DNA from: Henricia sp. BOLD:AAB3569
Taxonomy: Eukaryota > Echinodermata > Asteroidea > Spinulosida > Echinasteridae
Direction: 5' to 3'
NCBI GenBank assembly: GCA_037783545.1
Contig: JBBELK010000064.1
Location: 3,224,001 to 3,288,000, forward strand
DNA length: 64,000 bases
Of this stretch, positions 121 through 33,500 are shown one piece after another (the first letter of the stretch is position 1; every line of letters begins with the position of its first letter). A model generated the notes under the pieces. The model was not told where the DNA came from. It searched no databases and saw only the letters and a program-made list of their open reading frames with translations. The translations under genes were made by a program, and so were the position numbers.

Positions 121-3100
121 GTAAGTGCAGACGCGTGTGGTCTAGTGGGTATGAAGCAGGACTCCCAATCAGAGGTTGGGGGTTCGAGCCCCACTTCTAC
201 CAACGTGTCTGTGTCCCTGGGCAAGGCACTTAATCCCAGTTGCCTCGTCAACCCAAGCGATATATGGGAAGCTGTTAAGGGGAATGCCACAATCTAACTG
301 CTGATAGGGTTGTGCGCCTGACCAGCAGCCACCTAGTTAAAGCGAAATGGTTCTGGCGATTCCCTGATGGCAGCGGTAATAATGGTAACAGCGCCTTGAG
401 CACCCTGCAGGGTGGATAAGTGCGCTATACAAATTGAATCATTATTATTTTTATTATTATGATCATTGCAAACCGCAATATAAAAAAGAGAGATAATGGT
501 GTCAGTACATTGTCGATTGGTGGTCCTACACATTTGTCAAATTATTGGCAAACTGTTAAATCTCACAAAAACTTTTTTACTTATTGAAATTTGTTGTTGA
601 TTGCAGTGCTTAGTTGTATAAAATGGAGTGCCATGGTGCAAAAGATGGCGACTTACCTCAAGCGTACAGAGTTAGGCAACCCTTTGCAAGTGTTGACCCT
701 TCCCTTTAAACATACGAGTGCTTGGAAACAGGCATGGTTGCATCTCTATAGTGTTTAGCAAATTTGCCTCTGAAGCTAGCAAACATTTAGCAGTGCTTAA
801 GGTTACGGTCTCCATAACCAGGGCCTTCGTTAACATAAAATCAGCTGCTAAATAGTAAATACCGCCATGAAATTAGCCCCGTTCTTTTTTATCGAAATAA
901 GTGAGCTCATCGTGTTTTTTCTACGCAGGTTTGAGTACTGCATGGCAAAGGTCCACGAAGCACTGTGCGATTCTGTTGACACTAAAACTTCCCTAGAAAG
1001 CATGAGGGTGCTAATCTGCCAATGCAATGTATATATACAGGAGCAAAGGGCTGCTAGAACCACACCAAATAGACGACTACTACAAAACATTGCAGACTTT
1101 ATTACTAAGATGCTGAGGGTAAGTGTTGCTGCTAGTAATTGACCAATCAAAGCCTCAGGTTTAGGTAACCAAAATGTTTGGTTACCTGAGTCCTGAACAT
1201 TTTGTGCACAGAGCTACGGCAAATGCAGCACGAGTGACGCAAAAACACCATAAACATCATTTTTATCAGCGCAGAGGAGGCTAGCAGGTTTAAAACGGAT
1301 TGTATAAGACTATCCTAACCTACTTTTAATCCCTTCATAAATGTGTTTTTGTGTAAACGGGAAAAACTCACCAAAATTAGCTTGTCGTTTTGCTAAGTTG
1401 TGCATTCACTTCGTTTTAGATGTGTGTCGAGATGTTTTTGTTTGATGGCACGCGTTACGCATATTGCAGGCGTGTTGTACGTGCACGCATACGACCGGAT
1501 ACTTAAGCGCACATTTTGCTTTCGAGCGTGCAGTTTCTATTTGCGTGTGCGTGTTTCAATACGCGCTGACCAGGGCGCGGACGCTGACGCACGGCACGGC
1601 CACGCGACTCTACTGCACACGTGCACATTGAGCTATATATATATGTAGGTAAATCAATGCACGTGCATGGCACGTGTGGCATGTTGCTAGGCAATTTCTA
1701 AATGGGCGGAGCTTACTGGATCGGTCTATTACAACATGGTTTGATGGGAAATAGTGACAATAATATACCTCATACATTGATTCTTGTTTACTGATTGGTT
1801 CAATGCAGATCACGCAACATGGATTAGTTAAACCAATTCCGAGGGCAACTGAAAAGTTACTGTTGACTAACCTTTTGCATCATGCATGTGTAGATCAAAG
1901 TATACAGTAGATTCTTAAGTCAAAACCGGATACTTTGAAACTCCGTTTACCTCGAAGTAATCGCTCATTCCCGACATGAGAATAGGCTTTTGTGCACACG
2001 AATACCTTTGTAACTCGAAATTCCTGCGAAAATGCCTCCGTTTACCTTTAATATTTTTGTGCGGCAAATCTAAAAAGAAACCGCAACTGAAACAAGCACA
2101 AAATGTGAAAATACCCGTCTTATCTATCAATAAAATGAGCTAAATACCGAGTCCACACTATACACGTGGGGCTAGCAAGTTACGATGGACACTTTTCGTG
2201 CATTAAGTGGAGCAAAACGGGATCTCCGCTTATCTCAATATCTGGATACCTCAAAATGTTTGCCCATTCCCTTGAGTTTTTGGAATGAATTTGTATGTTT
2301 TTGACAGTCAATTTCCCCTTCCTAAATTTTAGATTTTTGGTGCAATAGCAGGTGAAGATCCCATAGGTTTCCCAATGAGCGGTACTGCACAGAATACTAA
2401 TGTAAGTTTAGTACCCACCTATACACCAATCCGGTAACTAAGGTCTCCTTCCCTGTACATCCGCCATAGCTGGGGGGCTTCCACTGGATGAACTGTATGT
2501 TTTGCTGTTGCTGAAGCTGCATTTGTTTACTTCAAATAAGTTGCGCTTCTTTGTAGGGTTGTGTACGTGAAGGCGGGCGCGTTGCGTGTACGTGAAAAAG
2601 AGGCGCGTCGCAAGCCCTCGGAGAGGCGCGTCCCGTGCACGCGGAGAGGCGCGTCCCGTGCACGCGGAGGAGGCGCGTTCGTGCATGTAATGGATAAGTG
2701 CTTTTCGTTATAACAGCAACACAAAACGCACAGCCCACGCACTGGACGCCCCCCAGCTATGGCAGTTATAGGGGGAGGAGACCTTAGTTAGCGGATTGGT
2801 CTATAGCATGTCTATTAAAGGTAGTTTAACACATGATTGGTAAATCATTACTAATAGTTTTATCTCCCTGTGTGATTGAAGATATGCATGAATAAAACCA
2901 ATCCGAGTACAAGTAGTCTGGTACAAGTGATCTGATTTTTATCCTTTTGTGTTGTTTTTACAGCTTGAAGAGACTGTGTTGCCATACTTGCAAGTCCTCT
3001 CTGAGTTCAGAGAAAAGGTTCGGCAAACGGCAAGACAACAAAAAGGTACAATGTCACAATCTCTACTATAAGAACATGGTAGTCGGCCTAAAGAGGACAG

Positions 3101-6100
3101 TGGCTTCTCACTGTTTCTTGAGAGCATTACCGCTGGGCGGCAAGACAACAAAAAGGTACAATGTCACAATCTCTACTATAAGAACATGGTAGTCAGCCTA
3201 AAGAGGACAGTGGCTTCTCACTGTTTCTTGAAAGCATTACCGCTGGGTGGCAAGACAACAAAAAGGTACAATGTCACAATCTCTACTATAAGAACATGGC
3301 AGTCAGCCTAAAGAGGACAGTGGCTTCTCACTGTTTCTTGAAAGCATTACCGCTGGGCGGCAAGACAACAAAAAGGTACAATGTCACAATCTCTACTATA
3401 AGAACATGGTAGTCAGCCTAAAGAGGACAGTGGCTTCTCTCTGTTTGTTGAAAGCATTACCGCTGGGTGGCAAGACAACAAAAAGGTACAATGTCACAAT
3501 CTCTACTATAAGAACATGGTAGTCAGCCTAAAGAGGACAGTGGCTTCTCTCTGTTTGTTGAAAGCATTACCGCTGGGCGGCAAGACAACAAAAAGGTACA
3601 ATGTCACAATCTCTACTATAAGAACATGGTAGTCAGCCTGAAGAGGACAGTGGCTTCTCACTGTTTCTTGAAAGCATTTCCGCTGGGTGGCAAGACAACA
3701 AAAAGGTACAATGTCACAATCTCTACTATAAGAACATGGCAGTCAGCCTAAAGAGGACAGTGGCTTCTCACTGTTTCTTGAGAGCATTACCGCTGGGTGG
3801 CAAGACAACAAAAAGGTACAATGTCACAATCTCTACTATAAGAACATGGCAGTCAGCCTAAAGAGGACAGTGGCTTCTCACTGTTTCTTGAGAGCATTAC
3901 CGCTGGGTGGCAAGACAACAAAAAGGTGCAATGTCACAATCTCTACTATAAGAACATGGCAGTCAGCCTAAAGAGGACAGTGGCTTCTCACTGTTTCTTG
4001 AAAGCATTACCGCTGGGTGGCAAGACAACAAAAAGGTGCAATGTCACAATCTCTACTATAAGAACATGGCAGTCAGCCTAAAGAGGACAGTGGCTTCTCA
4101 CTGTTTCTTGAAAGCATTTCCGCTGGGTGGCAAGACAACAAAAAGGTACAATGTCACAATCTCTACTATAAGAACATGGTAGTCAGCCTGAAGAGGACAG
4201 TGGCTTCTCTCTGTTTCTTGAGAGCATTACCGCTGGGTGGCAAGACAATAAAAAGGTACAATGTCACAATCTCTACTATAAGAACATGGCAGTCAGCCTA
4301 AAGAGGACAGTGGCTTCTCACTGTTTCTTGAAAGCATTACCGCTGGGTGGCAAGACAATAAAAAGGTGCAATGTCACAATCTCTACTATAAGAACATGGC
4401 AGTCAGCCTAAAGAGGACAGTGGCTTCTCACTGTTTCTTGAAAGCATTACCGCTGGGCGGCAAGACAACAAAAAGGTACAATGTCACAATCTCTACTATA
4501 AGAACATGGTAGTCAGCCTGAAGAGGACAGTGGCTTCTCACTGTTTCTTGAAAGCATTACCGCTGGGCGGCAAGACAACAAAAAGGTACAATGTCACAAT
4601 CTCTACTATAAGAACATGGCAGTCAGCCTAAAGAGGACAGTGGCTTCTCACTGTTTCTTGAAAGCATTACCGCTGGGCGGCAAGACAACAAAAAGGTACA
4701 ATGTCACAATCTCTACTATAAGAACATGGCAGTCAGCCTAAAGAGGACAGTGGCTTCTCACTGTTTCTTGAAAGCATTACCGCTGGGCGGCAAGACAACA
4801 AAAAGGTACAATGTCACAATCTCTACTATAAGAACATGGTAGTCAGCCTGAAGAGGACAGTGGCTTCTCACTGTTTCTTGAAAGCATTACCGCTGGGTGG
4901 CAAGACAACAAAAAGGTACAATGTCACAATCTCTACTATAAGAACATGGCAGTCAGCCTAAAGAGGACAGTGGCTTCTCACTGTTTCTTGAAAGCATTAC
5001 CGCTGGGCGGCAAGACAACAAAAAGGTACAATGTCACAATCTCTACTATAAGAACATGGTAGTCAGCCTAAAGAGGACAGTGGCTTCTCACTGTTTCTTG
5101 AAAGCATTACCGCTGGGCGGCAAGACAACAAAAAGGTACAATGTCACAATCTCTACTATAAGAACATGGCAGTCAGCCTAAAGAGGACAGTGGCTTCTCA
5201 CTGTTTGTTGAAAGCATTACCGCTGGGTGGCAAGACAACAAAAAGGTACAATGTCACAATCTCTACTATAAGAACATGGCAGTCAGCCTAAAGATGACAG
5301 TGGCTTCTCACTGTTTGTTGAAAGCATTACCGCTGGGTGGCAAGACAACAAAAAGGTACAATGTCACAATCTCTACTATAAGAACATGGTAGTCAGCCTG
5401 AAGAGGACAGTGGCTTCTCTCTGTTTCTTGAAAGCATTACCGCTGGGTGGCAAGACAACAAAAAGGTACAATGTCACAATCTCTACTATAAGAACATGGC
5501 AGTCGGCCTGAAGAGGACAGTGGCTTCTCACTGTTTCTTGAAAGCATTACCGCTGGGTGGCAAGACAACAAAAAGGTACAATGTCACAATCTCTACTATA
5601 AGAACATGGCAGTCAGCCTAAAGAGGACAGTGGCTTCTCACTGTTTCTTGAGAGCATTACCGCTGGGTGGCAAGACAACAAAAAGGTACAATGTCACAAT
5701 CTCTACTATAAGAACATGGCAGTCAGCCTAAAGAGGACAGTGGCTTCTCACTGTTTCTTGAAAGCATTACCGCTGGGTGGCAAGACAACAAAAAGGTACA
5801 ATGTCACAATCTCTACTATAAGAACATGGTAGTCAGCCTAAAGAGGACAGTGGCTTCTCACTGTTTCTTGAGAGCATTACCGCTGGGTGGCAAGACAACA
5901 AAAAGGTACAATGTCACAATCTCTACTATAAGAACATGGTAGTCAGCCTAAAGAGGACAGTGGCTTCTCACTGTTTCTTGAAAGCATTACCGCTGGGTGG
6001 CAAGACAACAAAAAGGTACAATGTCACAATCTCTACTATAAGAACATGGTAGTCAGCCTGAAGAGGACAGTGGCTTCTCACTGTTTCTTGAAAGCATTAC

Positions 6101-9100
6101 CGCTGGGTGGCAAGACAACAAAAAGGTACAATGTCACAATCTCTACTATAAGAACATGGCAGTCAGCCTAAAGAGGACAGTGGCTTCTCACTGTTTCTTG
6201 AAAGCATTACCGCTGGGTGGCAAGACAACAAAAAGGTACAATGTCACAATCTCTACTATAAGAACATGGTAGTCAGCCTGAAGAGGACAGTGGCTTCTCA
6301 CTGTTTCTTGAAAGCATTACCGCTGGGTGGCAAGACAACAAAAAGGTACAATGTCACAATCTCTACTATAAGAACATGGTAGTCAGCCTAAAGAGGACAG
6401 TGGCTTCTCACTGTTTCTTGAGAGCATTACCGCTGGGTGGCAAGACAACAAAAAGGTACAATGTCACAATCTCTACTATAAGAACATGGTAGTCAGCCTA
6501 AAGAGGACAGTGGCTTCTCACTGTTTCTTGAAAGCATTACCGCTGGGTGGCAAGACAACAAAAAGGTACAATGTCACAATCTCTACTATAAGAACATGGT
6601 AGTCAGCCTGAAGAGGACAGTGGCTTCTCACTGTTTCTTGAAAGCATTACCGCTGGGTGGCAAGACAACAAAAAGGTACAATGTCACAATCTCTACTATA
6701 AGAACATGGCAGTCAGCCTAAAGAGGACAGTGGCTTCTCACTGTTTCTTGAAAGCATTACCGCTGGGTGGCAAGACAACAAAAAGGTACAATGTCACAAT
6801 CTCTACTATAAGAACATGGTAGTCAGCCTGAAGAGGACAGTGGCTTCTCACTGTTTCTTGAAAGCATTACCGCTGGGTGGCAAGACAACAAAAAGGTACA
6901 ATGTCACAATCTCTACTATAAGAACATGGCAGTCAGCCTAAAGAGGACAGTGGCTTCTCACTGTTTCTTGAAAGCATTACCGCTGGGTGGCAAGACAACA
7001 AAAAGGTACAATGTCACAATCTCTACTATAAGAACATGGTAGTCAGCCTGAAGAGGACAGTGGCTTCTCACTGTTTCTTGAAAGCATTACCGCTGGGTGG
7101 CAAGACAACAAAAAGGTGCAATGTCACAATCTCTACTATAAGAACATGGCAGTCAGCCTAAAGAGGACAGTGGCTTCTCACTGTTTCTTGAAAGCATTAC
7201 CGCTGGGTGGCAAGACAACAAAAAGGTACAATGTCACAATCTCTACTATAAGAACATGGCAGTCAGCCTAAAGAGGACAGTGGCTTCTCACTGTTTCTTG
7301 AAAGCATTTCCGCTGGGTGGCAAGACAACAAAAAGGTGCAATGTCACAATCTCTACTATAAGAACATGACAGTCAGCCTAAAGAGGACAGTGGCTTCTCA
7401 CTGTTTCTTGAAAGCATTACCGCTGGGCGGCAAGACAACAAAAAGGTACAATGTCACAATCTCTACTATAAGAACATGGCAGTCAGCCTAAAGAGGACAG
7501 TGGCTTCTCACTGTTTCTTGAAAGCATTTCCGCTGGGTGGCAAGACAACAAAAAGGTACAATGTCACAATCTCTACTATAAGAACATGGTAGTCAGCCTA
7601 AAGAGGACAGTGGCTTCTCACTGTTTCTTGAAAGCATTACCGCTGGGTGGCAAGACAACAAAAAGGTACAATGTCACAATCTCTACTATAAGAACATGGC
7701 AGTCGGCCTGAAGAGGACAGTGGCTTCTCACTGTTTCTTGAAAGCATTACCGCTGGGTGGCAAGACAACAAAAAGGTACAATGTCACAATCTCTACTATA
7801 AGAACATGGCAGTCAGCCTAAAGAGGACAGTGGCTTCTCACTGTTTCTTGAGAGCATTACCGCTGGGTGGCAAGACAACAAAAAGGTACAATGTCACAAT
7901 CTCTACTATAAGAACATGGCAGTCAGCCTAAAGAGGACAGTGGCTTCTCACTGTTTCTTGAAAGCATTACCGCTGGGTGGCAAGACAACAAAAAGGTACA
8001 ATGTCACAATCTCTACTATAAGAACATGGTAGTCAGCCTAAAGAGGACAGTGGCTTCTCACTGTTTCTTGAGAGCATTACCGCTGGGTGGCAAGACAACA
8101 AAAAGGTACAATGTCACAATCTCTACTATAAGAACATGGTAGTCAGCCTAAAGAGGACAGTGGCTTCTCACTGTTTCTTGAAAGCATTACCGCTGGGTGG
8201 CAAGACAACAAAAAGGTACAATGTCACAATCTCTACTATAAGAACATGGTAGTCAGCCTGAAGAGGACAGTGGCTTCTCACTGTTTCTTGAAAGCATTAC
8301 CGCTGGGTGGCAAGACAACAAAAAGGTACAATGTCACAATCTCTACTATAAGAACATGGCAGTCAGCCTAAAGAGGACAGTGGCTTCTCACTGTTTCTTG
8401 AAAGCATTACCGCTGGGTGGCAAGACAACAAAAAGGTACAATGTCACAATCTCTACTATAAGAACATGGTAGTCAGCCTGAAGAGGACAGTGGCTTCTCA
8501 CTGTTTCTTGAAAGCATTACCGCTGGGTGGCAAGACAACAAAAAGGTACAATGTCACAATCTCTACTATAAGAACATGGTAGTCAGCCTAAAGAGGACAG
8601 TGGCTTCTCACTGTTTCTTGAGAGCATTACCGCTGGGTGGCAAGACAACAAAAAGGTACAATGTCACAATCTCTACTATAAGAACATGGTAGTCAGCCTA
8701 AAGAGGACAGTGGCTTCTCACTGTTTCTTGAAAGCATTACCGCTGGGTGGCAAGACAACAAAAAGGTACAATGTCACAATCTCTACTATAAGAACATGGT
8801 AGTCAGCCTGAAGAGGACAGTGGCTTCTCACTGTTTCTTGAAAGCATTACCGCTGGGTGGCAAGACAACAAAAAGGTACAATGTCACAATCTCTACTATA
8901 AGAACATGGCAGTCAGCCTAAAGAGGACAGTGGCTTCTCACTGTTTCTTGAAAGCATTACCGCTGGGTGGCAAGACAACAAAAAGGTACAATGTCACAAT
9001 CTCTACTATAAGAACATGGTAGTCAGCCTGAAGAGGACAGTGGCTTCTCACTGTTTCTTGAAAGCATTACCGCTGGGTGGCAAGACAACAAAAAGGTACA

Positions 9101-12100
9101 ATGTCACAATCTCTACTATAAGAACATGGCAGTCAGCCTAAAGAGGACAGTGGCTTCTCACTGTTTCTTGAAAGCATTACCGCTGGGTGGCAAGACAACA
9201 AAAAGGTACAATGTCACAATCTCTACTATAAGAACATGGTAGTCAGCCTGAAGAGGACAGTGGCTTCTCACTGTTTCTTGAAAGCATTACCGCTGGGTGG
9301 CAAGACAACAAAAAGGTGCAATGTCACAATCTCTACTATAAGAACATGGCAGTCAGCCTAAAGAGGACAGTGGCTTCTCACTGTTTCTTGAAAGCATTAC
9401 CGCTGGGTGGCAAGACAACAAAAAGGTACAATGTCACAATCTCTACTATAAGAACATGGCAGTCAGCCTAAAGAGGACAGTGGCTTCTCACTGTTTCTTG
9501 AAAGCATTTCCGCTGGGTGGCAAGACAACAAAAAGGTGCAATGTCACAATCTCTACTATAAGAACATGACAGTCAGCCTAAAGAGGACAGTGGCTTCTCA
9601 CTGTTTCTTGAAAGCATTACCGCTGGGCGGCAAGACAACAAAAAGGTACAATGTCACAATCTCTACTATAAGAACATGGCAGTCAGCCTAAAGAGGACAG
9701 TGGCTTCTCACTGTTTCTTGAAAGCATTTCCGCTGGGTGGCAAGACAACAAAAAGGTACAATGTCACAATCTCTACTATAAGAACATGGTAGTCAGCCTA
9801 AAGAGGACAGTGGCTTCTCACTGTTTCTTGAAAGCATTACCGCTGGGTGGCAAGACAACAAAAAGGTACAATGTCACAATCTCTACTATAAGAACATGGC
9901 AGTCAGCCTAAAGAGGACAGTGGCTTCTCACTGTTTCTTGAAAGCATTACCGCTGGGTGGCAAGACAACAAAAAGGTACAATGTCACAATCTCTACTATA
10001 AGAACATGGTAGTCAGCCTAAAGAGGACAGTGGCTTCTCTCTGTTTCTTGAAAGCATTACCGCTGGGTGGCAAGACAACAAAAAGGTACAATGTCACAAT
10101 CTCTACTATAAGAACATGGTAGTCAGCCTGAAGAGGACAGTGGCTTCTCACTGTTTCTTGAAAGCATTACCGCTGGGTGGCAAGACAACAAAAAGGTACA
10201 ATGTCACAATCTCTACTATAAGAACATGGCAGTCAGCCTAAAGAGGACAGTGGCTTCTCACTGTTTCTTGAAAGCATTACCGCTGGGTGGCAAGACAACA
10301 AAAAGGTACAATGTCACAATCTCTACTATAAGAACATGGTAGTCAGCCTGAAGAGGACAGTGGCTTCTCACTGTTTCTTGAAAGCATTACCGCTGGGTGG
10401 CAAGACAACAAAAAGGTGCAATGTCACAATCTCTACTATAAGAACATGGCAGTCAGCCTAAAGAGGACAGTGGCTTCTCACTGTTTCTTGAAAGCATTAC
10501 CGCTGGGTGGCAAGACAACAAAAAGGTACAATGTCACAATCTCTACTATAAGAACATGGCAGTCAGCCTAAAGAGGACAGTGGCTTCTCACTGTTTCTTG
10601 AAAGCATTACCGCTGGGTGGCAAGACAACAAAAAGGTGCAATGTCACAATCTCTACTATAAGAACATGGCAGTCAGCCTAAAGAGGACAGTGGCTTCTCA
10701 CTGTTTCTTGAAAGCATTACCGCTGGGTGGCAAGACAACAAAAAGGTGCAATGTCACAATCTCTACTATAAGAACATGGCAGTCAGCCTAAAGAGGACAG
10801 TGGCTTCTCACTGTTTCTTGAGAGCATTACCGCTGGGTGGCAAGACAACAAAAAGGTACAATGTCACAATCTCTACTATAAGAACATGGCAGTCAGCCTA
10901 AAGAGGACAGTGGCTTCTCACTGTTTCTTGAAAGCATTTCCGCTGGGTGGCAAGACAACAAAAAGGTGCAATGTCACAATCTCTACTATAAGAACATGAC
11001 AGTCAGCCTAAAGAGGACAGTGGCTTCTCACTGTTTCTTGAAAGCATTACCGCTGGGCGGCAAGACAACAAAAAGGTACAATGTCACAATCTCTACTATA
11101 AGAACATGGCAGTCAGCCTAAAGAGGACAGTGGCTTCTCACTGTTTCTTGAAAGCATTTCCGCTGGGTGGCAAGACAACAAAAAGGTACAATGTCACAAT
11201 CTCTACTATAAGAACATGGTAGTCAGCCTAAAGAGGACAGTGGCTTCTCACTGTTTCTTGAAAGCATTACCGCTGGGTGGCAAGACAACAAAAAGGTACA
11301 ATGTCACAATCTCTACTATAAGAACATGGCAGTCAGCCTAAAGAGGACAGTGGCTTCTCACTGTTTCTTGAAAGCATTACCGCTGGGTGGCAAGACAACA
11401 AAAAGGTACAATGTCACAATCTCTACTATAAGAACATGGTAGTCAGCCTAAAGAGGACAGTGGCTTCTCTCTGTTTCTTGAAAGCATTACCGCTGGGTGG
11501 CAAGACAACAAAAAGGTACAATGTCACAATCTCTACTATAAGAACATGGCAGTCAGCCTAAAGAGGACAGTGGCTTCTCACTGTTTCTTGAAAGCATTAC
11601 CGCTGGGTGGCAAGACAACAAAAAGGTACAATGTCACAATCTCTACTATAAGAACATGGCAGTCAGCCTAAAGAGGACAGTGGCTTCTCTCTGTTTCTTG
11701 AAAGCATTTCCGCTGGGTGGCAAGACAACAAAAAGGTACAATGTCACAATCTCTACTATAAGAACATGGTAGTCAGCCTGAAGAGGACAGTGGCTTCTCA
11801 CTGTTTCTTGAAAGCATTTCCGCTGGGTGGCAAGACAACAAAAAGGTACAATGTCACAATCTCTACTATAAGAACATGGCAGTCAGCCTAAAGAGGACAG
11901 TGGCTTCTCACTGTTTCTTGAAAGCATTTCCGCTGGGTGGCAAGACAACAAAAAGGTACAATGTCACAATCTCTACTATAAGAACATGGTAGTCAGCCTG
12001 AAGAGGACAGTGGCTTCTCACTGTTTCTTGAAAGCATTACCGCTGGGCGGCAAGACAACAAAAAGGTACAATGTCACAATCTCTACTATAACAACATGGT

Positions 12101-15100
12101 AGTCGGCCTAAAGAGGATAGTGGCTTCTCTCTGTTTCTTGAAAGCATTACCGCTGGGTGGCAAGACAACAAAAAGGTACAATGTCACAATCTCTACTATA
12201 ACAACATGGTAGTCAGCCTAAAGAGGACAGTGGCTTCTCTCTGTTTCTTGAAAGCATTACCGCTGGGCGGCAAGACAATAAAAAGGTGCAATGTCACAAT
12301 CATCCCAAGTGTGGTTGTTTCATTTCAATAGTGACTGGGCATCATGCTAAATAGTGCAGTCATCAGAAACATGTACAGATTACGCTGTGTGTAATTGTTT
12401 ATTATTAAACTAAAACTTTTTGTTGTCGGTAGCCGTGGATATCTTAAAGTTGTGTGACGAGCTTCGGGACGAAGTCTTGCCTGATCTTGGAGTCAGATTA
12501 GAAGATCAAGATGAAGGTGCCGCGGTCGTCAAACTAGTGGACAAGGAAACAATACTGAGAGAGAGAAAACTGGCTCAACAGGTTGGCAAACTAGTAGCCT
12601 TTGGTTCATATAGTGGTCAAACTAGTGGACAAGGAAACGATACTGAGAGACAGAAAACTGGCTCAACAGGTTGGCAAACTAGTAGCCTTTGGTTCATATA
12701 GTGGTCAAACTACTGGACAAGGAAACGATACTGACAGACAGAAAACTGGCCCAACAGGTTGGCAAACTAGTAGCCTTTGGTTCATATAGTGGTCAAACTA
12801 GTGGACAAGGAAACGATACTGAGAGACAGAAAACTGGCTCAACAGGTTGGCAAACTAGTAGCCTAGTTATAGTGGTCAAACTAGTGGACAAGGAAACGAT
12901 ACTGAGAGACAGAAAACTGGCTCAACAGGTTGGCAAACTAGTAGCCTTTGGTTCATATAGTGGTCAAACTAGTGGACAAGGAAACGATACTAACAGACAG
13001 AAAACTGGCTCAATAGGTTGGCAAACTAGTAGCCTTTGGTTCATATAGTGGTCAAACTACTGGACAAGGAAACGATACTAACAGACAGAAAACTGGCTCA
13101 ATAGGTTGGCAAACTAGTAGCCTTTGGTTCATATAGTGGTCAAACTAGTGGACAAGGAAACGATACTAACAGACAGAAAACTGGCTCAACAGGTTGGCAA
13201 ACTAGTAGCCTTTGGTTCATATAGTGGTCAAACTACTGGACAAGGAAACGATACTAACAGACAGAAAACTGGCTCAATAGGTTGGCAAACTAGTAGCCTT
13301 TGGTTCATATAGTGGTCAAACTAGTGGACAAGGAAACGATACTAACAGACAGAAAACTGGCTCAACAGGTTGGCAAACTAGTAGCCTTTGGTTCATATAG
13401 TGGTCAAACTACTGGACAAGGAAACGATACTAACAGACAGAAAACTGGCTCAATAGGTTGGCAAACTAGTAGCCTTTGGTTCATATAGTGGTCAAACTAG
13501 TGGACAAGGAAACGATACTAACAGACAGAAAACTGGCTCAACAGGTTGGCAAACTAGTAGCCTTTGGTTCATATAGTGGTCAAACTAGTGGACAAGGAAA
13601 CGATACTAACAGACAGAAAACTGGCTCAACAGGTTGGCAAACTAGTAGCCTTTGGTTCATATAGTGGTCAAACTAGTGGACAATCAAACGATACTGAGAG
13701 ACAGAAAACTGGCTCAACAGGTTGGCAAACTAGTAGCCTTTGATTCATATAGTGGTCAAACTAGTGGACAAGGAAACGATACTGAGAGACAGAAAACTGG
13801 CTCAACAGGTTGGCAAACTAGTAGCCTTTGGTTCATATAGTGGTCAAACTAGTGGACAAGGAAACGATACTGACAGACAGAAAACTGGCCCAACAGGTTG
13901 GCAAACTAGTAGCCTTTGGTTCATATAGTGGTCAAACTAGTGGACAAGGAAACGATACTGACAGACAGAAAACTGGCTCATCAACAGGTCAGCAAACTAG
14001 TAGCATTTGGTTCATATAGTGGTCAAACTAGTGGACAAGGAAACGATACTAACAGACAGAAAACTGGCTCAACAGGTTGGCAAACTAGTAGCCTTTGGTT
14101 CATATAGTGGTCAAACTAGTGGACAAGGAAACGATACTAACAGACAGAAAACTGGCTCAACAGGTTGGCAAACTAGTAGCCTTTGGTTCATATAGTGGTC
14201 AAACTAGTGGACAATCAAACGATACTGAGAGACAGAAAACTGGCTCAACAGGTTGGCAAACTAGTAGCCTTTGATTCATATAGTGGTCAAACTAGTGGAC
14301 AAGGAAACGATACTGAGAGACAGAAAACTGGCTCAACAGGTTGGCAAACTAGTAGCCTTTGGTTCATATAGTGGTCAAACTAGTGGACAAGGAAACGATA
14401 CTAACAGACAGAAAACTGGCTCAACAGGTTGGCAAACTAGTAGCCTTTGGTTCATATAGTGGTCAAACTAGTGGACAAGGAAACGATACTGAGAGACAGA
14501 AAACTGGCTCAACAGGTTGGCAAACTAGTAGCCTTTGGTTCATATAGTGGTCAAACTAGTGGACAAGGAAACGATACTGAGAGACAGAAAACTGGCTCAA
14601 CAGGTTGGCAAACTAGTAGCCTTTGGTTCATATAGTGGTCAAACTACTGGACAAGGAAACGATACTGACAGACAGAAAACTTCGGTTCATATTTGCATTA
14701 TAATATCTGAGCTGCCAACAATCACAGATTTTGCAACAAATTTCCTGGTAAATTACTAAACTCATGACTCCTGATACAGATGAAAACCCTCCCTGATTGT
14801 CTATTAACAACAACAGAGATTTATAGACGGTAATAACAGGAGCCAAAGTGCTACATTCTTTATCCATATGGCGTTTTCAAGTTAACAAAATTATTTATTA
14901 TTATTATTTCTTTCTGGTACCAAGGATTCCTCAATAGTGCTCATTGCACTGTCGCTCGCAAGCGTGAGGAAACCTATGAAGAATTCGAATTAGAAAAATT
15001 CGGAAATTTCTGTGCCATTTCTAAATACATTGTTGTGTAGAATATTTAAAATAATTTACAAACAGTTAAACATTTTCATAGTCTTGAAAATAAGTGTGAC

Positions 15101-17022
15101 ATTTTGAAACTTTCGCTCAAAATGTAACAAATTTCACTCAAAATGTAATTGAAATTGATAAAGTCCCTGTTCTACAGCTGGGTAACATCAGCAACTACCG
15201 TTTCAGAAAGAAACTGGTCAAAAGAACTTGAAATGTAATCGCAAGAGTTGAAAAATGCCTTGCAGTACCCAGTCCTCCCCCACCCCCCCCCCCCCCCCCC
15301 CCCCCCCCTCCCCCACCCTTTACGTCGTAAATCAATTTTCTTAAATATTTTAAGGACTATGATACCAAGACATATCTATAACCGCTTGTAAATTATTTGA
15401 AATATTCTACATTATTTAGAAATTGCACAGAAATTTAAAACTTGAAGAGGCGAAATTACAAATGCATCAAAATGTGACACTTTGGCTCCTGTTTTTATGA
15501 AGAGACCCCACATAAGCTGTTCTGGTTCTTAGAGGAAATACATGTATATATACTGATTGCTTTTTTACAGCAAGCTGAAGATAAATTGCGGAAAAAGGAA
15601 GAAGCCAGGAAGAAAGAGCAGGAGAAACAAGCAGCTAAAGAAGCCCTGAGACGCATCGCACCGTCTGAAATGTTCCTTAACGAGACCACAAAGTACTCTG
15701 CTTTTGGTGATGAGGTGAGAGTAGTGAACGACTTCCCCTGTATGACATCGCTGGTCTGAAATGTTCCTTATCGAGAACACAAAGTACTCTGCTTTTGGTG
15801 ATAAGGTGAGAGTAGTGAACGACTTCCCCTGTATGACATCGCTGGTCTGAAATGTTCCTTATCGAGACCACAAAGTACTCTGCTTTTGGTGATAAGGTGA
15901 GAGTAGTGAACGACTTCCCCTGTATGACATCGCTGGTCTGAAATGTTCCTTATCGAGGCCACAGAGTACTCTGCTTTTGGTGATAAGGTGGGAGTAGTGA
16001 ACGACTTCCCCTGTATGACATCGCTGGTCTGAAATGTTCCTTATCGAGACCACAAAGTACTCTGCTTTTGGTGATAAGGTGAGAGTAGTGAACGACTTCC
16101 CCTGTATGACATCGCACCGTCTGAAATGTTCCTTATCGAGGCCACAAAGTACTCTGCTTTTGGTGATGAGGTGAGAGTAGTGAACGACTTCCCCTGTATG
16201 ACATCGCACCGTCTGAAATGTTCCTTATCGAGGCCACAAAGTACTCTGCTTTTGGTGATAAGGTGAGAGTAGTGAACGACTTCCCCTGTATGACATCGCA
16301 CCGTCTGAAATGTTCCTTATCGAGGCCACAAAGTACTCTGCTTTTGGTGATGAGGTGAGAGTAGTGAACGACTTCCCCTGTATGACATCGCACCGTCTGA
16401 AATGTTCCTTATCGAGGCCACAAAATACTCTGCTTTTGGTGATGAGGTGAGAGTAGTGAACGACTTCCCCTGTATGACATCGCAAACTGCGATACATTTT
16501 AGACAATCGGCTTAAAAGTAATTAACAAATAATGCTTGTAACAAGTGATTTTCTCCCAATTCCATCTACTTCCATTTCTGTTTCCTCATTATTGCCGTCC
16601 TCACCATCCCAAAATGACTGCAAATCCTTTGTTTACTGTTTTCTCAAAGGTTAAAGGACTGAGCTGGTTTTTGCTCAGGTTGGTTTTAATCATGCATATC
16701 TTCAATAACACAGGGGGTAAACCTATTTGTAACAGTTTACCAATCATGTATACTATCTTTAAAGTTGCTAAGCTAAATAAGTGGATAGCTGCACAAAATA
16801 ACTAGCCCCAAAACAACCACCCTAATTGTAATTTTTCCTAATTTTTGGGTTCTACCATTTCACTTTTAGGGGATGCCAACTCATGATGCTGAAGGGAAGG
16901 AATTGAGTGGAAAGCAGCTGAAGAAATTAGCTAAATTGTACCAAGCTCAGGAGAAGCTACACAATGAATATCTCCAGAGTAGGGAGTCAACACCTAGTAA
17001 TGATAATGCTGCCTCAAATTAA
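20..17022 (+). CDS. CARS1: Cysteinyl-tRNA synthetase, cytosolic (CARS1), 3' half of gene, 7 exons
   Basis: The enzyme charges tRNA-Cys with cysteine in the cytosol. Exons read here are 20-120, 929-1118, 2333-2401, 2964-3045, 12433-12581, 15571-15714 and 16870-17022. All have AG/GT borders and compatible phases, giving 295 codons plus TAA. The translation aligns from memory with the C-terminal part of vertebrate cytosolic CysRS: an EFFLNVK segment, [39 protein letters not shown], a Lys/Glu-rich helix, then APSEMFL and [13 protein letters not shown]. This is the anticodon-binding and eukaryote-specific C-terminal extension. The catalytic Rossmann domain with HIGH and KMSKS lies upstream of the window. 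Three of the six introns carry minisatellites that overlap the preceding exon end. Family assignment is strong; exon borders are read by eye without transcript data. Confidence 0.93.
128..460 (+). mobile_element. tRNA-derived SINE (family A)
   Basis: A tRNA-like head (GTGGTCTAGTGGGTATGA, then GGTTCGAGCCCC as B box near 180-191) is followed by a non-tRNA body and an A/T-rich ATT-repeat end near 440-460. A second copy lies in reverse orientation at about 38846-39066. It begins just after the donor of CARS1 exon a. Confidence 0.75.
929..1118 (+). CDS. CARS1: CARS1 exon b
   Basis: The acceptor is ctacgcag and the donor GTAAGT is at 1119. The first base completes a Gln codon from exon a. The product includes [12 protein letters not shown] and [13 protein letters not shown], very close to vertebrate CysRS. 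It ends in phase 0. Confidence 0.92.
1157..1196. repeat. Short hairpin in CARS1 intron
   Basis: The arms CAGGTTTAGGTAACCAAA and TTTGGTTACCTGAGTCCTG are nearly perfect inverted repeats around an ATG spacer. No function is evident. Confidence 0.55.
1200..2332. other. Intron sequence without recognised content
   Basis: CARS1 intron between exons b and c. I see no exon of the family, no array and no clear inverted repeat beyond the hairpin just upstream. The short open frames here lack homology that I recognise. Confidence 0.5.
2333..2401 (+). CDS. CARS1: CARS1 exon c
   Basis: This is a 23-codon exon between ttttag and GTAAGT. It reads [14 protein letters not shown]..., matching the IFGAVEED..GFP segment of vertebrate CysRS. 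It is in phase 0 at both ends. Confidence 0.88.
2425..2800. mobile_element. Foldback MITE, about 376 bp
   Basis: The terminal inverted repeat starts ACCAATCCGGTAACTAAGGT and ends with its near complement at 2800. The subterminal sequence GCCATAGCTGGGGGGC is also inverted at 2741-2763. The interior is GC-rich with short tandem copies of GAGGCGCGTCCCGTGCACGC. Confidence 0.7.
2813..2915. mobile_element. Partial copy of the TTAAAG...ATTGGTAA MITE family
   Basis: It shares 'ttaaaggtagtttaacac', 'atgattggtaaa', 'ccctgtgtgattgaagatat' and 'gcatgaataaaaccaa' with the complete copies at 53740 and 58409. Only one end is present, about 50 bp before CARS1 exon d. Confidence 0.6.
2964..3045 (+). CDS. CARS1: CARS1 exon d; its 3' end seeds the 110-bp array
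   Basis: The acceptor is ttttacag and the donor GTACAA is at 3046. It reads [19 protein letters not shown]..., matching [17 protein letters not shown] of vertebrate CysRS, and ends in phase 1. Its last 17 bases plus the donor are repeated in every unit of the following minisatellite. Using any downstream copy of the donor would read through into TAA about 11 codons later, so only the first donor gives full-length protein. Confidence 0.92.
3029..12300 (+). repeat. 110-bp minisatellite overlapping a 5' splice site, 84 full periods
   Basis: The unit length is exactly 110 bp. The motif CAAGACAACA recurs at 3031, 3141, 3251 and on to 12271, which is exactly 84 periods later with no net indel. The unit begins with the last 17 bases of CARS1 exon d and its donor (AAAAAG|GTACAA or GTGCAA), so 85 tandem donors exist. 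Each unit also holds a pyrimidine-rich stretch ending in AG (ctgtttcttgaaag) 31 bases upstream of the next donor. Variation is limited to about ten recurrent point sites. The array stops at 12300 against a SINE-tail sequence. Confidence 0.97.
12301..12350 (+). mobile_element. SINE tail fragment at the end of the 110-bp array
   Basis: The sequence CATCCCAAGTGTGGTTGTTT followed by CATTTCAATAGTGACTGGGC is shared with 26438-26490 and 61858-61905, where it follows tRNA-like or truncated SINE sequence. It abuts the last minisatellite unit. Confidence 0.5.
12433..12581 (+). CDS. CARS1: CARS1 exon e; its 3' end seeds the 88-bp array
   Basis: The acceptor is gtcggtag and the donor is CAG|GTTGGC. The first two bases complete an Ala codon begun in exon d. 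It reads [16 protein letters not shown] and [15 protein letters not shown]. The last 54 bases (12528-12581) are the start of the 88-bp repeat unit. The donor GTTGGC is weak by consensus. Confidence 0.92.
12528..14681 (+). repeat. 88-bp minisatellite overlapping a 5' splice site, about 24 copies
   Basis: The unit is 88 bp and starts with GTCAAACTAGTGGACAAGGA, which is coding sequence of CARS1 exon e. Every unit includes the exon end CTCAACAG|GTTGGC. One unit near 12861 is shortened and one near 13980 carries three extra bases. A pyrimidine-rich tttggttcatatag sits just upstream of each repeated exon end. The last copy is cut at about 14681. Confidence 0.96.
15279..15317. repeat. Poly-C tract
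   Basis: A near-pure run of C in the CARS1 intron before exon f. Run length is probably unreliable in any assembly. The complementary strand is G-rich and could form a quadruplex. Confidence 0.85.
15571..15714 (+). CDS. CARS1: CARS1 exon f; its 3' end seeds the 92-bp array
   Basis: The acceptor is ttttttacag and the donor GTGAGA is at 15715. It has 48 codons in phase 0. The product is a charged Lys/Glu/Ala helix followed by [19 protein letters not shown], matching PPSEMFLSETDKYSKFDE of vertebrate CysRS. Its last 61 bases plus the donor form the repeat unit downstream. Confidence 0.92.
15654..16484 (+). repeat. 91-92-bp minisatellite overlapping a 5' splice site, about 9 copies
   Basis: The unit begins CATCGCACCGTCTGAAATGT, the coding end of CARS1 exon f, and includes the donor GATGAG|GTGAGA or GATAAG|GTGAGA. 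Early copies read ATCGCTGGTCTG (91 bp) and later ones ATCGCACCGTCTG (92 bp), so unit subtypes are clustered. Each copy keeps 61 bases of exon sequence. Confidence 0.95.
16870..17022 (+). CDS. CARS1: CARS1 terminal coding exon
   Basis: The acceptor is cacttttag. It reads [19 protein letters not shown]...[13 protein letters not shown] and stops at TAA 17020-17022. This is the conserved extreme C terminus of cytosolic CysRS. The only AATAAA seen soon after is at 17254-17259, inside an inverted-repeat element. Confidence 0.93.
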
Positions 17023-27500: not shown

Positions 27501-30500
27501 TGTTGGATAATGTCACACATGCTTCACAGGAATCATTGCGACGTTAAGCAGTGATTGGAGCAGACAAACAAGTAGTGGGCGTGCAAACCACTGCGAAAGG
27601 GGAGTAATCTCTTCGATAAAAAAAACGAATTTGAAAGAGTTCAAATAGATGCATTTGTATTTTTTTTTACTGAAACCGCGACCTCTGGCACACAGAAAAA
27701 GGTGTTTCAATCAATAGACCGTATCGAATAGCTGCCATCTTGGGGGGCACCTTTTGTTACTTAAACCGTTCAACAGTGGAAGCACAATATGTGCAAACCA
27801 TGCATGTCTTCAAGGAACAAAGAAACTGCCCCATGAAATGGCGGCTATTCGATAGGGTCTATACCCTCCCCCTTCCCTCCAAAGAACAACATTCTCTTAC
27901 TTCCATTGTGTGCATTTGTCAGTTACCATTTATGTGTTAACTTCATGTACATTGTACATGTATATATGGGAAAGAATTGAGAAGTTGATCATGGGTTCAG
28001 ATCTTGTGTATAAAACATACGAGACAGGCTGAAATATTTTTTAGTATTTCCTTGCAAAATCTTAAAATTTTTTCACTTCTAGATTTGGGTTTTTCCCATC
28101 AAATCTGGAAGATGCTTGATGAGTCATTTGAAAGAAAGATAATTTGAGCAACTTCTCAACTTATAGTCTGTCGCTGTAATTGATAGCATTATGGGAGAGC
28201 CACCAGAGAGTGATTAAGTTCGCTTTTTGGCAATCCTTCAGGGGTGTTATCATTCTCGTTTTCTGAATTACTTGGTTTTTGTTTTTTTTTTAATTTTACC
28301 TGTAGTGTCCTTTGTCACGTTTGTTGTTTTGAGAAATAGTAAATGAACTGAAATGAAACTCATCCGTTTTATGTCTGGAAACAGATCCTTAACTCTGGAT
28401 TTTCTTGGGAGTAGCGACACTCAAACACTCATCCAAACAACGCGGCTTCTCTCAACGTGTCTTTCATCGAGGAAAGAGGGCGCTGTTGATCCCTGGTTGC
28501 AAGATATCACCCCCGAGTTCTATCAAAGGCTCTTGTTTATTCTTCAGAGTTCAACAAATAGTGAGTTGAGGCACAATTTTCACGTATAGACCTGTTTCAC
28601 AGGCGGCCATGACAGGGTGAAATCCCCGGGGCTTACCTCATGGGTCCCGAGATTTTTACATCATAACATCCGTCATATTTCTCTCATTACGAATCTAAAA
28701 CTCCCGCGCTTCTATGCCGCATATTTCCAAGGATATCGTCGAAAAACCACCAAACTAATTGCATCGCATCATGAGAATGTGACGCAGAGGAGATTTGGTG
28801 TGGTCTGGCAAACTGAGAATGTTGACTTGCATCGCATCATGAGAATGTGACGCAGAGGAGATTTGGTGTTGTCTGGCAAACTGAGAATCCCAACAAACAG
28901 TTTATGACCAATTCATTTTGTGATGTTCAGTTCTTCCAATAACACCAATATATATGATCAAGTGGTTTGCATGAGTATATAATATACCCTTTGTACCGAC
29001 GGCCAAAACATGGGGGAAGATTTTATATAAGACAATATCCACAAAGTGCCAACTCATGCATGATGCACAGTGACAATGTGACTGCCCCCTGTCATGGCTG
29101 GCTGTACAAAGGGTGAATAGATCCACAAAGTGCCAACCCATGCATGATGCACAGTGACAATGTGACTGTCCCCTGTCATGGCTGGCTGTACAAAGGGTCA
29201 ATAGATCCACAAAGTGCCAACCCATGCATGATGCACAGTGACAATGTGACTGTCCCCTGTCATGGCTGGCTGTACAAAGGGTCAATAGATCCACAAAGTG
29301 CCTACTCATGCATGATGCACAGTGACAATGTGACTGTCCCCTGTCATGGCTGGCTGTACAAAGGGTCAATAGATCCACAAAGTGCCAACCCATGCATGAT
29401 GCACAGTGACAATGTGACTGCCCCCTGTCATGGCTGGCTGTACAAAGGGTCAATAGATCCACAAAGTGCCTACTCATGCGTGATGCACAGTGACAATGTG
29501 ACTGTCCCCTGTCATGGCTGGCTGTACAAAGGGTGAATAGATCCACAAAGTGCCAACCCATGCATGATGCACAGTGACAATGTGACTGTCCCCTGTCATG
29601 GCTGGCTGTACAAAGGGTCAATAGATCCACAAAGTGCCAACCCATGCATGATGCACAGTGACAATGTGACTGTCCCCTGTCATGGCTGGCTGTACAAAGG
29701 GTCAATAGATCCACAAAGTGCCAACCCATGCATGATGCACAGTGACAATGTGACTGTCCCCTGTCGTGGCTGGCTGTACAAAGTTCAATAGATCCACAAA
29801 GTGCCTACTCATGCATGATGCACAGTGACAATGTGACTGTCCCCTGTCATGGCTGGCTGTACAAAGGGTCAATAGATCCACAAAGTGCCTACTCGTGCAT
29901 GATGCACAGTGACAATGTGACTGTCCCCTGTCATGGCTGGCTGTACAAAGGGTCAATAGATCCACAAAGTGCCAACCCATGCATGATGCACAGTGACAAT
30001 GTGACTGTCCCCTGTCATGGCTGGCTGTACAAAGGGTCAATAGATCCACAAAGTGCCAACCCATGCGTGATGCACAGTGACAATGTGACTGCCCCCTGTC
30101 ATGGCTGCCTGTACAAAGGGTCATTAGATCCACAAAGTGCCTACTCATGCGTGATGCACAGTGACAATGTGACTGTCCCCTGTCATGGCTGGCTGTACAA
30201 AGGGTCAATAGATCCACAAAGTGCCTACTCATGCATGATGCACAGTGACAATGTGACTGTCCCCTGTCATGGCTGGCTGTACAAAGGGTCAATAGATCCA
30301 CAAAGTGCCTACTCATGCATGATGCACAGTGACAATGTGACTGTCCCCTGTCATGGCTGGCTGTACAAAGGGTCAATAGATCCACAAAGTGCCTACCCAT
30401 GCATGATGCACAGTGACAATGTGACTGTCCCCTGTCATGGCTGGCTGTACAAAGGGTCAATAGATCCACAAAGTGCCTACTCATGCGTGATGCACAGTGA

Positions 30501-33500
30501 CAATGTGACTGTCCCCTGTCATGGCTGGCTGTACAAAGGGTCAATAGATCCACAAAGTGCCTACTCATGCATGATGCACAGTGACAATGTGACTGTCCCC
30601 TGTCATGGCTGGCTGTACAAAGGGTCAATAGATCCACAAAGTGCCTACTCATGCATGATGCACAGTGACAATGTGACTGTCCCCTGTCATGGCTGGCTGT
30701 ACAAAGGGTCAATAGATCCACAAAGTGCCTACCCATGCATGATGCACAGTGACAATGTGACTGTCCCCTGTCATGGCTGGCTGTACAAAGGGTCAATAGA
30801 TCCACAAAGTGCCTACTCATGCGTGATGCACAGTGACAATGTGACTGTCCCCTGTCATGGCTGGCTGTACAAAGGGTCAATAGATCCACAAAGTGCCTAC
30901 TCATGCATGATGCACAGTGACAATGTGACTGTCCCCTGTCATGGCTGGCTGTACAAAGGGTCAATAGATCCACAAAGTGCCTACCCATGCATGATGCACA
31001 GTGACAATGTGACTGTCCCCTGTCATGGCTGGCTGTACAAAGGGTCAATAGATCCACAAAGTGCCTACTCATGCGTGATGCACAGTGACAATGTGACTGT
31101 CCCCTGTCATGGCTGGCTGTACAAAGGGTCAATAGATCCACAAAGTGCCAACTCATGCATGATGCACAGTGACAATGTGACTGCCCCCTGTCATGGCTGG
31201 CTGTACAAAGGGTCAATAGATCCACAAAGTGCCTACTCATGCATGATGCACAGTGACAATGTGACTGCCCCCTGTCATGGCTGGCTGTACAAAGGGTCAA
31301 TAGATCCACAAAGTGCCTACCCATGCATGATGCACAGTGACAATGTGACTGTCCCCTGTCATGGCTGGCTGTACAAAGGGTCAATAGATCCACAAAGTGC
31401 CTACTCATGCATGATGCACAGTGACAATTAATGTGACTGTCCCCTGTCATGGCTGGCTGTACAAAGGGTCAATAGATCCACAAAGTGCCAACTCATGCAT
31501 GATGCACAGTGACAATGTGACTGCCCCCTGTCATGGCTGGCTGTACAAAGGGTCATTAGATCTACAAAGTGCCTACTCATGCAATAGCATGATGCACAGT
31601 GACAATGTGACTGCCCCCTGTCATGGCTGGCTGTACAAAGGGTCAATAGATCCACAAAGTGCCTACCCGTGCATGATGCACAGTGACAATGTAACTGCCC
31701 CCTGTCATGGCTGGCTGTACAAAGGGTCAATAGATCCACAAAGTGCCTACCCGTGCATGATGCACAGTGACAATGTGACTGCCCCCTGTCATGGCTGCCT
31801 GTACAAAGGGTCATTAGATCTACAAAGTGCCTACTCATGCAATAGCATGATGCACAGTGACAATGTGACTGCCCCCTGTCATGGCTGGCTGTACAAAGGG
31901 TCAATAGATCCACAAAGTGCCTACCCATGCATGATGCACAGTGACAATGTGACTGCCCCCTGTCATGGCTGCCTGTACAAAGGGTCAATAGATCCACAAA
32001 GTGCCAACCCATGCATGATGCACAGTGACAATGTGACTGCCCCCTGTCATGGCTGCCTGTACAAAGGGTCAATAGATCCACAAAGTGCCAACCCATGCAT
32101 GATGCACAGTGACAATGTGACTGCCCCCTGTCATGGCTGGCTGTACAAAGGGTCAATAGATCCACAAAGTGCCAACCCATGCATGATGCACAGTGACAAT
32201 GTGACTGCCCCCTGTCATGGCTGGCTGTACAAAGGGTCAATAGATCCACAAAGTGCCTACCCGTGCATGATGCACAGTGACAATGTAACTGCCCCCTGTC
32301 ATGGCTGGCTGTACAAAGGGTCAATAGATCCACAAAGTGCCTACCCATGCATGATGCACAGTGACAATGTGACTGCCCTCTGTCATGGCTGGCTGTACAA
32401 AGGGTCAATAGATCCACAAAGTGCCTACCCATGCATGATGCACAGTGACAATGTGACTGCCCCCTGTCATGGCTGCCTGTACAAAGGGTCAATAGATCCA
32501 CAAAGTGCCAACCCATGCATGATGCACAGTGACAATGTGACTGCCCCCTGTCATGGCTGCCTGTACAAAGGGTCAATAGATCCACAAAGTGCCTACCCAT
32601 GCATGATGCACAGTGACAATGTGACTGCCCCCTGTCATGGCTGCCTGTACAAAGGGTCAATAGATCCACAAAGTGCCTACTCATGCACAAAATGTGTGTA
32701 TGTGTTCAGGGGCATATTGGTGTGAAATTCTCATTACTTGTGTAATTTCAGATAAAATAACCACGTAAAATGGTGATATAACCACCCATTTTTTTCCGAG
32801 CCGCATATGGTTTCCCGTACGCATACCATTTCTAATGGTCCCCAATGTGACTGCCCCTGTTGTTTTGTGTCTTTGCAGCTGAGCTCCTATACAATGTTGG
32901 TTTTATCATCAGTACGCTGTTCTCATTGAATGAAACACTCATTCAGAATTGGACCGATACAGAACAAATTGTTGGCTTCATTGAGGCTCTTAGACAAGTC
33001 AGGTAAAATGGTCCCAACAACAATCATTTACTTGTTTGTTTGTTTGTTGGGGGCTGTTTGTTTGTTTGTTTTAAAGGTGCAAGCTCAGATTTGTGTGAAA
33101 TCGGCCCCTGGTACCCTTTCAGACATTGTCAGATGTGACTTTTCAGCTGGTCAGCTGATTTCTTCTTTACCGGTCCTCATATTCACTATTGTATGTGGAC
33201 CGGGAACCAGTCCATAGGAGGTCTGGGTCTTAGATTAATCCCCTGCTAAAAATGTGTTGGTGTTAACCAAAAAGATTCCGAGTGCCGTGTTTCCATTCTG
33301 TAGTTGATCTTAAGCGCGGCACCAGAAGTTGCAGTCAAAGGTCATGCTCTGTGTGTGCAATGTACAGAACAATGTGGTCATGTACAGCATATAAGACAGC
33401 CTGAATTTTGTAATATTTTCCCCGCAACCGCATTGGAGCGGATGCGGTAAAGATTAATTGCTTATCTAACTGCAAACTGATCCTGAGCTCAATGTTCATC

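Follow-up and report, generated by a model that had tools for sequence, protein, structure and literature searches.

Mirage-like minisatellites at four exon–intron junctions of the CARS1 gene in a sea star

The CARS1–SAAL1 locus

The window, i.e., the whole stretch of 64,000 nucleotides that was analysed, corresponds to positions 3224001-3288000 of the contig JBBELK010000064.1 (C64) in a Henricia sp. assembly of 740.7 Mb. It opens within CARS1, the gene of the cytosolic cysteinyl-tRNA synthetase, which is followed by SAAL1, and both genes lie on the + strand. The protein comparison gives CARS1 an identity of 77%, 77%, and 75% to Patiria, Acanthaster, and Asterias amurensis, whereas none of the listed proteins of brittle stars, sea urchins, and amphioxus exceeds 66%. 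The nine mapped exons of SAAL1, when joined, are 64%, 63%, and 60% identical to the proteins of Patiria, Acanthaster, and Asterias rubens. These similarities point to a sea star outside the genera compared and rule out amphioxus as the source. The CARS1 exons mapped in the window, all on the + strand, include two internal exons at 929..1118 and 2333..2401, which are free of arrays at both ends, three exons whose 3′ ends carry an array (2964..3045, 12433..12581, and 15571..15714), and the final coding exon with the stop codon (16870..17022).

Donor arrays in the last three introns

The last three introns of CARS1 each begin with a minisatellite which copies the end of the preceding exon together with its splice donor. 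The first of them, A1 (3029..12301, + strand), is described by TRF as 84.3 copies of a 110-bp unit with 97% matches and begins in the final 17 bases of its exon. The second, A2 (12528..14681, + strand), consists of 24.5 copies of an 88-bp unit and begins in the final 54 exon bases, and the third, A3 (15654..16484, + strand), comprises 9.1 copies of a 92-bp unit, shortened to 91 bp in some copies, which begin in the final 61. The TRF scores of 17601, 3938, and 1487, respectively, against a threshold of 50, are far past chance. The initial annotation had placed arrays with units of 110, 88, and 91–92 bp at 3029, 12528, and 15654, each starting within the exon, 17, 54, or 61 bases before its end, and including the donor; TRF recovers all three, and the mapped exon ends (3045, 12581, and 15714) agree with those distances. 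The units of the three arrays are unrelated and thus point to separate origins, as had been proposed there.

Each unit copies one true splice site, either a donor or an acceptor, when cryptic sites are left aside. The A1 donor, AAAAAG|GT, is present 85 times, since the 33-bp partial unit in which the array terminates still holds it. A1 contains 28 distinct unit types among 84 units, together with one exact repeat of a 20-unit block. In A2, the donor AACAG|GT occurs 20 times, and four of the 22 well-aligned units carry T at position -3. Of the earlier estimate of about 85, 25, and 9 donors, the first and the last figures stand, and the count for A2 is better given as about 24, because its final partial unit has lost the donor, on this contig as well as on the second contig described below (C501).

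The effect of the arrays on the protein was assessed by alignment with the orthologues of five echinoderms: Patiria, Acanthaster, Asterias, Amphiura, and Diadema. The CARS1 protein predicted from the first donors shows zero gaps at the exon joins, and gaps are confined to two residues within an exon in Amphiura and to the C-terminal tails of the Acanthaster and Asterias proteins. The use of the second donor is predicted to lead to an in-frame stop codon for A1 and A3 and to a frame shift for A2. If the gene works, the first donors must therefore be used. A repeated exon within the CARS1 protein was also considered and is ruled out by the gap-free joins with the echinoderm orthologues.

A fourth array at a 3′ splice site

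A fourth CARS1 array lies just upstream of the window, from -34694 to -1015 in window coordinates, where 280.5 copies of a 120-bp unit extend over 33.7 kb and almost fill the intron preceding the exon at -1109 to -981. This unit is composed of the last ~25 bases of the intron, including the acceptor, and ~95 bases of the exon. The array is a mirror image of A1–A3, with the last copy and not the first one being functional. When the edge copies are used, all four array-bearing junctions are gap-free against the five orthologues, and the edge sites, i.e., the first donors in A1–A3 and the final acceptor in the upstream array, are presumably those used in transcripts. CARS1 thus bears arrays at three 5′ splice sites and one 3′ splice site, the array at the latter being the largest. 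As this array copies an acceptor, the effect extends beyond 5′ junctions, and the specificity for exon ends that had been assumed in the initial annotation has to be given up. Between anchors, the acceptor array contains 46 distinct segments among 259, one of which is a 2.5-kb stretch without an anchor.

Copy number on other contigs

The same locus is found on the contig C501, with ~93–97% identity over stretches of at least 1.4 kb, and C501 is most likely the other haplotype of the C64 locus. All four CARS1 arrays recur there at the same junctions, A1 as just 1.3 units (a value read from the sequence) in comparison with 84.3 copies on C64. At the A1 junction, 85 donors on C64 are thus opposed to two on C501. 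The differences in A2 (24.5 copies on C64, 37.5 on C501) and A3 (9.1 and 7.0) are smaller, and the acceptor array is represented by 280.5 copies on C64, 6.4 on C501, and 29.4 on a further contig, C297. If C501 is the other haplotype, such differences are as expected of minisatellite turnover. The array in the SAAL1 intron is nearly equal on both contigs (43.3 copies on C64 and 43.6 on C501), which indicates that fast turnover is not general to the arrays. The contig C297 (1846001-1871000) bears a third, partial copy of CARS1, which may be a partial duplicate and departs from CARS1 in the intron holding a 33-bp array. Beyond this array, C297 contains unrelated satellites of 116 bp x 19.6 and 331 bp x 17.

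The contigs bear directly on the explanation that mis-assembled repeats account for the arrays or, failing that, for their great length. The exact 20-unit block repeat inside A1, the 84 copies of A1 on C64 compared to 1.3 on C501, and the third, partial CARS1 copy on C297 would all be in accordance with such an artefact. The recurrence of the four arrays on C501, and of the acceptor array on C297 too, speaks against it as the origin of the arrays, though not as a source of the exact copy numbers. Moreover, the 28 unit types of A1 and the 46 segments of the acceptor array follow an order which no simple loop would make. An assembly artefact, which had been named at the outset among the findings that would refute the proposal, is therefore regarded as highly improbable.

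Variation among the repeated splice sites

The donor GT is invariant in all scored units: 84/84 in A1, 9/9 in A3, and, in A2, 22 of the 22 well-aligned units (out of 24) on C64 and 37/37 on C501. Such invariance could be a sign that the repeated splice sites are functional, with the extra donors recruiting U1 or slowing splicing and in this way tuning the expression of CARS1, or with the arrays being intermediates of intron gain or loss. A mirage-based model of intron gain has been proposed for the amphioxus globins, according to the accessible parts of the sources (PMC3087553, PMC3902484). However, the mean frequency of minor variants per site in the donor arrays is just 1.4–6%, so an invariant dinucleotide is expected anyway and carries little weight. 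In addition, the same housekeeping gene has two donors on one contig and 85 on the other, the exon joins match those of other echinoderms, and no new exon is seen. A function of the repeated sites consequently appears quite unlikely.

The acceptor array of C64 behaves differently from the donor arrays, as AG is present in 141 of 260 anchored copies and TG in the remaining 119, with ~20 anchorless units left unscored. The acceptor AG is kept in 29/29 copies on C297 and in 6/6 on C501. Among the 257 units of exactly 120 bp, only three of the 120 positions have a major variant below 80%, and these include the A of the acceptor. This could be read as the disarming of acceptors, which is suggestive only, because three randomly placed sites would hit a given dinucleotide with a probability of ~5% (calculated by hand). 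A broader reading assumes that splice junctions attract tandem duplication in this lineage and that the fate of the copies then depends on whether they precede or follow the true site: the decoy donors, being downstream, would stay intact, and the decoy acceptors, whose upstream position could let them be selected before the true one, would be in the course of being disarmed. We hold this reading as a whole to be unlikely.

Breakpoints and the A1 spacer

The breakpoints of the four arrays are situated 17, 54, 61, and ~95 bases inside the exon, and no common sequence among them was seen by eye. Inspection by eye also revealed, in A3, a 7-bp microhomology, with CATCGCA present at either end of the ancestral segment, and, in A2, a 4-bp filler where the units join. 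Such differing breakpoints fit ordinary duplications no less well than they fit a single dedicated mechanism.

A1 on C501 is in a minimal state, in which a 33-bp piece holding the donor (17 exon and 16 intron bases) occurs twice around a 77-bp spacer, with flanks as on C64. The origin of A1 is ambiguous in this respect, as a duplication could not be told apart from an insertion with a 33-bp repeat on either side. Positions 45–100 of the A1 unit match at least 38 other places in the genome (40 of 178 candidates scored). The spacer was also considered as a local transposon copy, and this candidate was rejected, with no copy found in the C64, C501, and C297 stretches outside the A1 site.

Junction position compared with chance

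The part of CARS1 that starts at the most upstream mapped exon measures 23.5 kb with the arrays collapsed and contains 24 junctions. A random segment of 88–120 bp would span a junction in it with a probability of 0.09–0.12. In the mapped part of the gene, all four arrays with a basic unit of at least 80 bp span a junction, a comparison made post hoc. A wider count covered, on either contig, the TRF arrays of at least 500 bp in the mapped spans of CARS1, SAAL1, and three genes of CCT chaperonins. Being confined to spans of known gene extent, it includes neither the 57-bp arrays past the last mapped SAAL1 exon nor the arrays that precede the first mapped CARS1 exon on C501. Four of the eight intragenic arrays span junctions, namely A1–A3 and the 120-bp acceptor array; the other four, a 27-bp-based one at -45988, the 33-bp one on C501, and those of SAAL1 (84 bp) and a CCT gene (78 bp), do not. 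At p = 0.1, this corresponds to a binomial P of ~0.005, calculated by hand and post hoc, uncorrected for the choice of a locus with this feature, and with all four cases in one gene.

Outside CARS1, neither of the two large intragenic arrays (SAAL1 and CCT) spans a junction. The SAAL1 array, A4 (29037..32687, + strand), consists of 43 copies of an 84-bp unit and is located in an intron, 476 bp past the exon end at 28560 and 191 bp ahead of the exon at 32879. It holds open frames of 561 codons (+ strand) and 588 codons (- strand), and its unit length is a multiple of three. The CCT array starts 94 bp from the nearest profile hit, the exon edges of the CCT genes being profile hits and not full gene models. 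On the contig C387, 78-bp arrays with a unit that looks tRNA-derived by eye occupy two introns of a CCT chaperonin gene (405416-406169 and 408416-408857). The SAAL1 and CCT arrays, as intronic arrays that span no junction, demonstrate that the birth of arrays is not confined to junctions.

The genome was also sampled with two protein families, PF00118 (67 matches, 87/87 candidates scored) and PF00270 (at least 50 matches, 49 of 248 scored). A tandem copy was defined as a pair of hits sharing more than half of the profile segment within 1 kb on one strand, and none were found among the 117 hits. Some genes contribute hits from two or three contigs, and a small number of the long open frames have a bacterial look. 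For the positive control PF01406, the matches listed include a series of hits spaced 120 bp apart along the CARS1 acceptor array, but arrays with a short coding part, such as A1–A3, would be missed by this screen. As far as the two-family sample goes, exon parts are thus not commonly present in large tandem copies in the genome.

These counts are relevant to the view that a process acting at exon–intron junctions starts tandem duplications, at 5′ and 3′ sites alike; examples of such a process would be breaks linked to U1 snRNP or R-loops, or a nucleosome edge. In its favour, a single gene has four junctions with an array each, separate from one another and unrelated in their units, at a chance of ~0.1 per array. 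The amphioxus genes Adh3, globin, TnC, and PGBD5 likewise show arrays at both boundary types, according to the accessible parts of the sources (PMC3087553, PMC3902484). Against it are the breakpoints without a common sequence, the two large arrays outside CARS1, the 0/117 tandem hits (in which only units with a long coding part would be visible), and the fact that the locus was picked because of this very look. The nucleation of duplications at junctions, which the initial annotation had argued for, is thus backed by the four CARS1 arrays and not by the arrays elsewhere; it is possible but unproven, and in the form of a dedicated process it seems rather doubtful.

Relation to known arrays

The original paper on the amphioxus mirage is reportedly that of Canestro et al. 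2002. Amphioxus mirages are described for Adh3, the globins BflGb6 and BflGb9, troponin C (TnC), and PGBD5, including somatic instability of the Adh3 mirage and a globin mirage of six and three units in two haplotypes, with both boundary types represented (PMC3087553, PMC3902484; accessible parts). The initial annotation had pointed to the Adh locus of amphioxus, which proves right in kind. As far as the accessible parts of these papers go, the units of the amphioxus and CARS1 arrays alike straddle the exon–intron boundary and copy the splice site, 5′ as well as 3′, and in both the copy number differs between haplotypes, provided that C501 is the other haplotype. The terminal units of the CARS1 arrays span the boundary and the internal units repeat the splice signal, as mirages do. 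The amphioxus genes have normal-looking products in the same accounts, and the CARS1 protein predicted from the edge sites is gap-free at the joins. The host of the known cases in these accounts is a cephalochordate, whereas here it is a sea star, which is an extension of the range and not a structural feature. The scale also differs, with four arrays of 88–120-bp units and up to 280 copies (33.7 kb) in CARS1, in contrast to the 2–7 copies given there for amphioxus globin and PGBD5. Among the matches listed in the open-licence literature, there was no echinoderm case of mirage arrays. The CARS1 arrays are regarded as the same kind of structure as the amphioxus mirages, larger and in another phylum.

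Another array of repeated donors is said to be the minisatellite of human IFI6 (6-16), which according to Turri et al. 1995 supplies multiple splice donors; its unit is reportedly 12 bp long and the donors are used alternatively. In comparison, CARS1 has long units, and its predicted protein stays intact only with the first donor. Intron gain by tandem genomic duplication is represented by the AGGT model and the potato RdRp case (PMC4974935, accessible part). As described there, this model shares with the CARS1 arrays the tandem duplication of a segment with a splice site. Unlike in intron gain of this type, the array-bearing joins of CARS1 have no gap or insertion, and no new exon is seen. 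The earthworm metallothionein introns with tandem repeats were considered as well and set aside, as the accessible part of the source does not place the repeats on the splice junction (PMC12783039).

Origin and persistence of the arrays

Exon definition and the origin of repeats by random duplication are both established ideas. In our preferred explanation, to which we assign a probability of roughly 60%, the arrays are exon–intron boundary minisatellites of the mirage type, which arose from separate random duplications straddling a junction and are tolerated through the edge copy. Each array would have started with a separate short tandem duplication of ~90–120 bp which happened to straddle one splice junction. 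It would then have expanded or contracted by unequal exchange or gene conversion, as is the case for minisatellites. The edge copy, i.e., the first donor in A1–A3 and the final acceptor in the upstream array, would be joined to the rest of the exon. Junction duplications would persist because only this copy has a partner splice site close by; the remaining copies, each with one true splice site only, would lie inside the intron, would not be exon-defined, and would be removed together with it. We infer, in this way, a random origin of the duplications with exon definition as a filter. A bias of array birth toward junctions is possible in addition, as the 4/4 long-unit arrays of CARS1 at junctions leave room for it.

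With the CARS1 arrays, a structure known from amphioxus is carried into echinoderms at a far larger scale. The two versions of the locus, with two or 85 donors and with ~6 or 280 acceptors, constitute a natural experiment on the choice of the spliceosome among many identical sites. The same two versions bear on the question of whether exon edges favour the birth or the survival of duplications.

Other repeats near the locus

A long inverted repeat (fold-back) was recognized by eye at 21790-22560, in intron 1 of SAAL1, and also through similar reading frames on both strands, and it includes a frame which we take to resemble the N-terminus of a transposase. A tandem segmental duplication of ~2.8 kb, carrying 57-bp arrays, occupies 40109-41800 and 42875-44216. 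The adjoining frames at 42061-42555 and 44199-46830 look like a LINE reverse transcriptase. The arrays that follow SAAL1 and those that precede CARS1 were checked for coding sequence. On the reverse strand of C501, at 3734-4429 of a 100-kb stretch, a 147-bp repeat present in 4.7 copies is located inside an open frame of 367 codons and is possibly an in-frame protein repeat. One array of C64 lies, judged by eye, in reverse-transcriptase-like sequence, and the others gave nothing clear.
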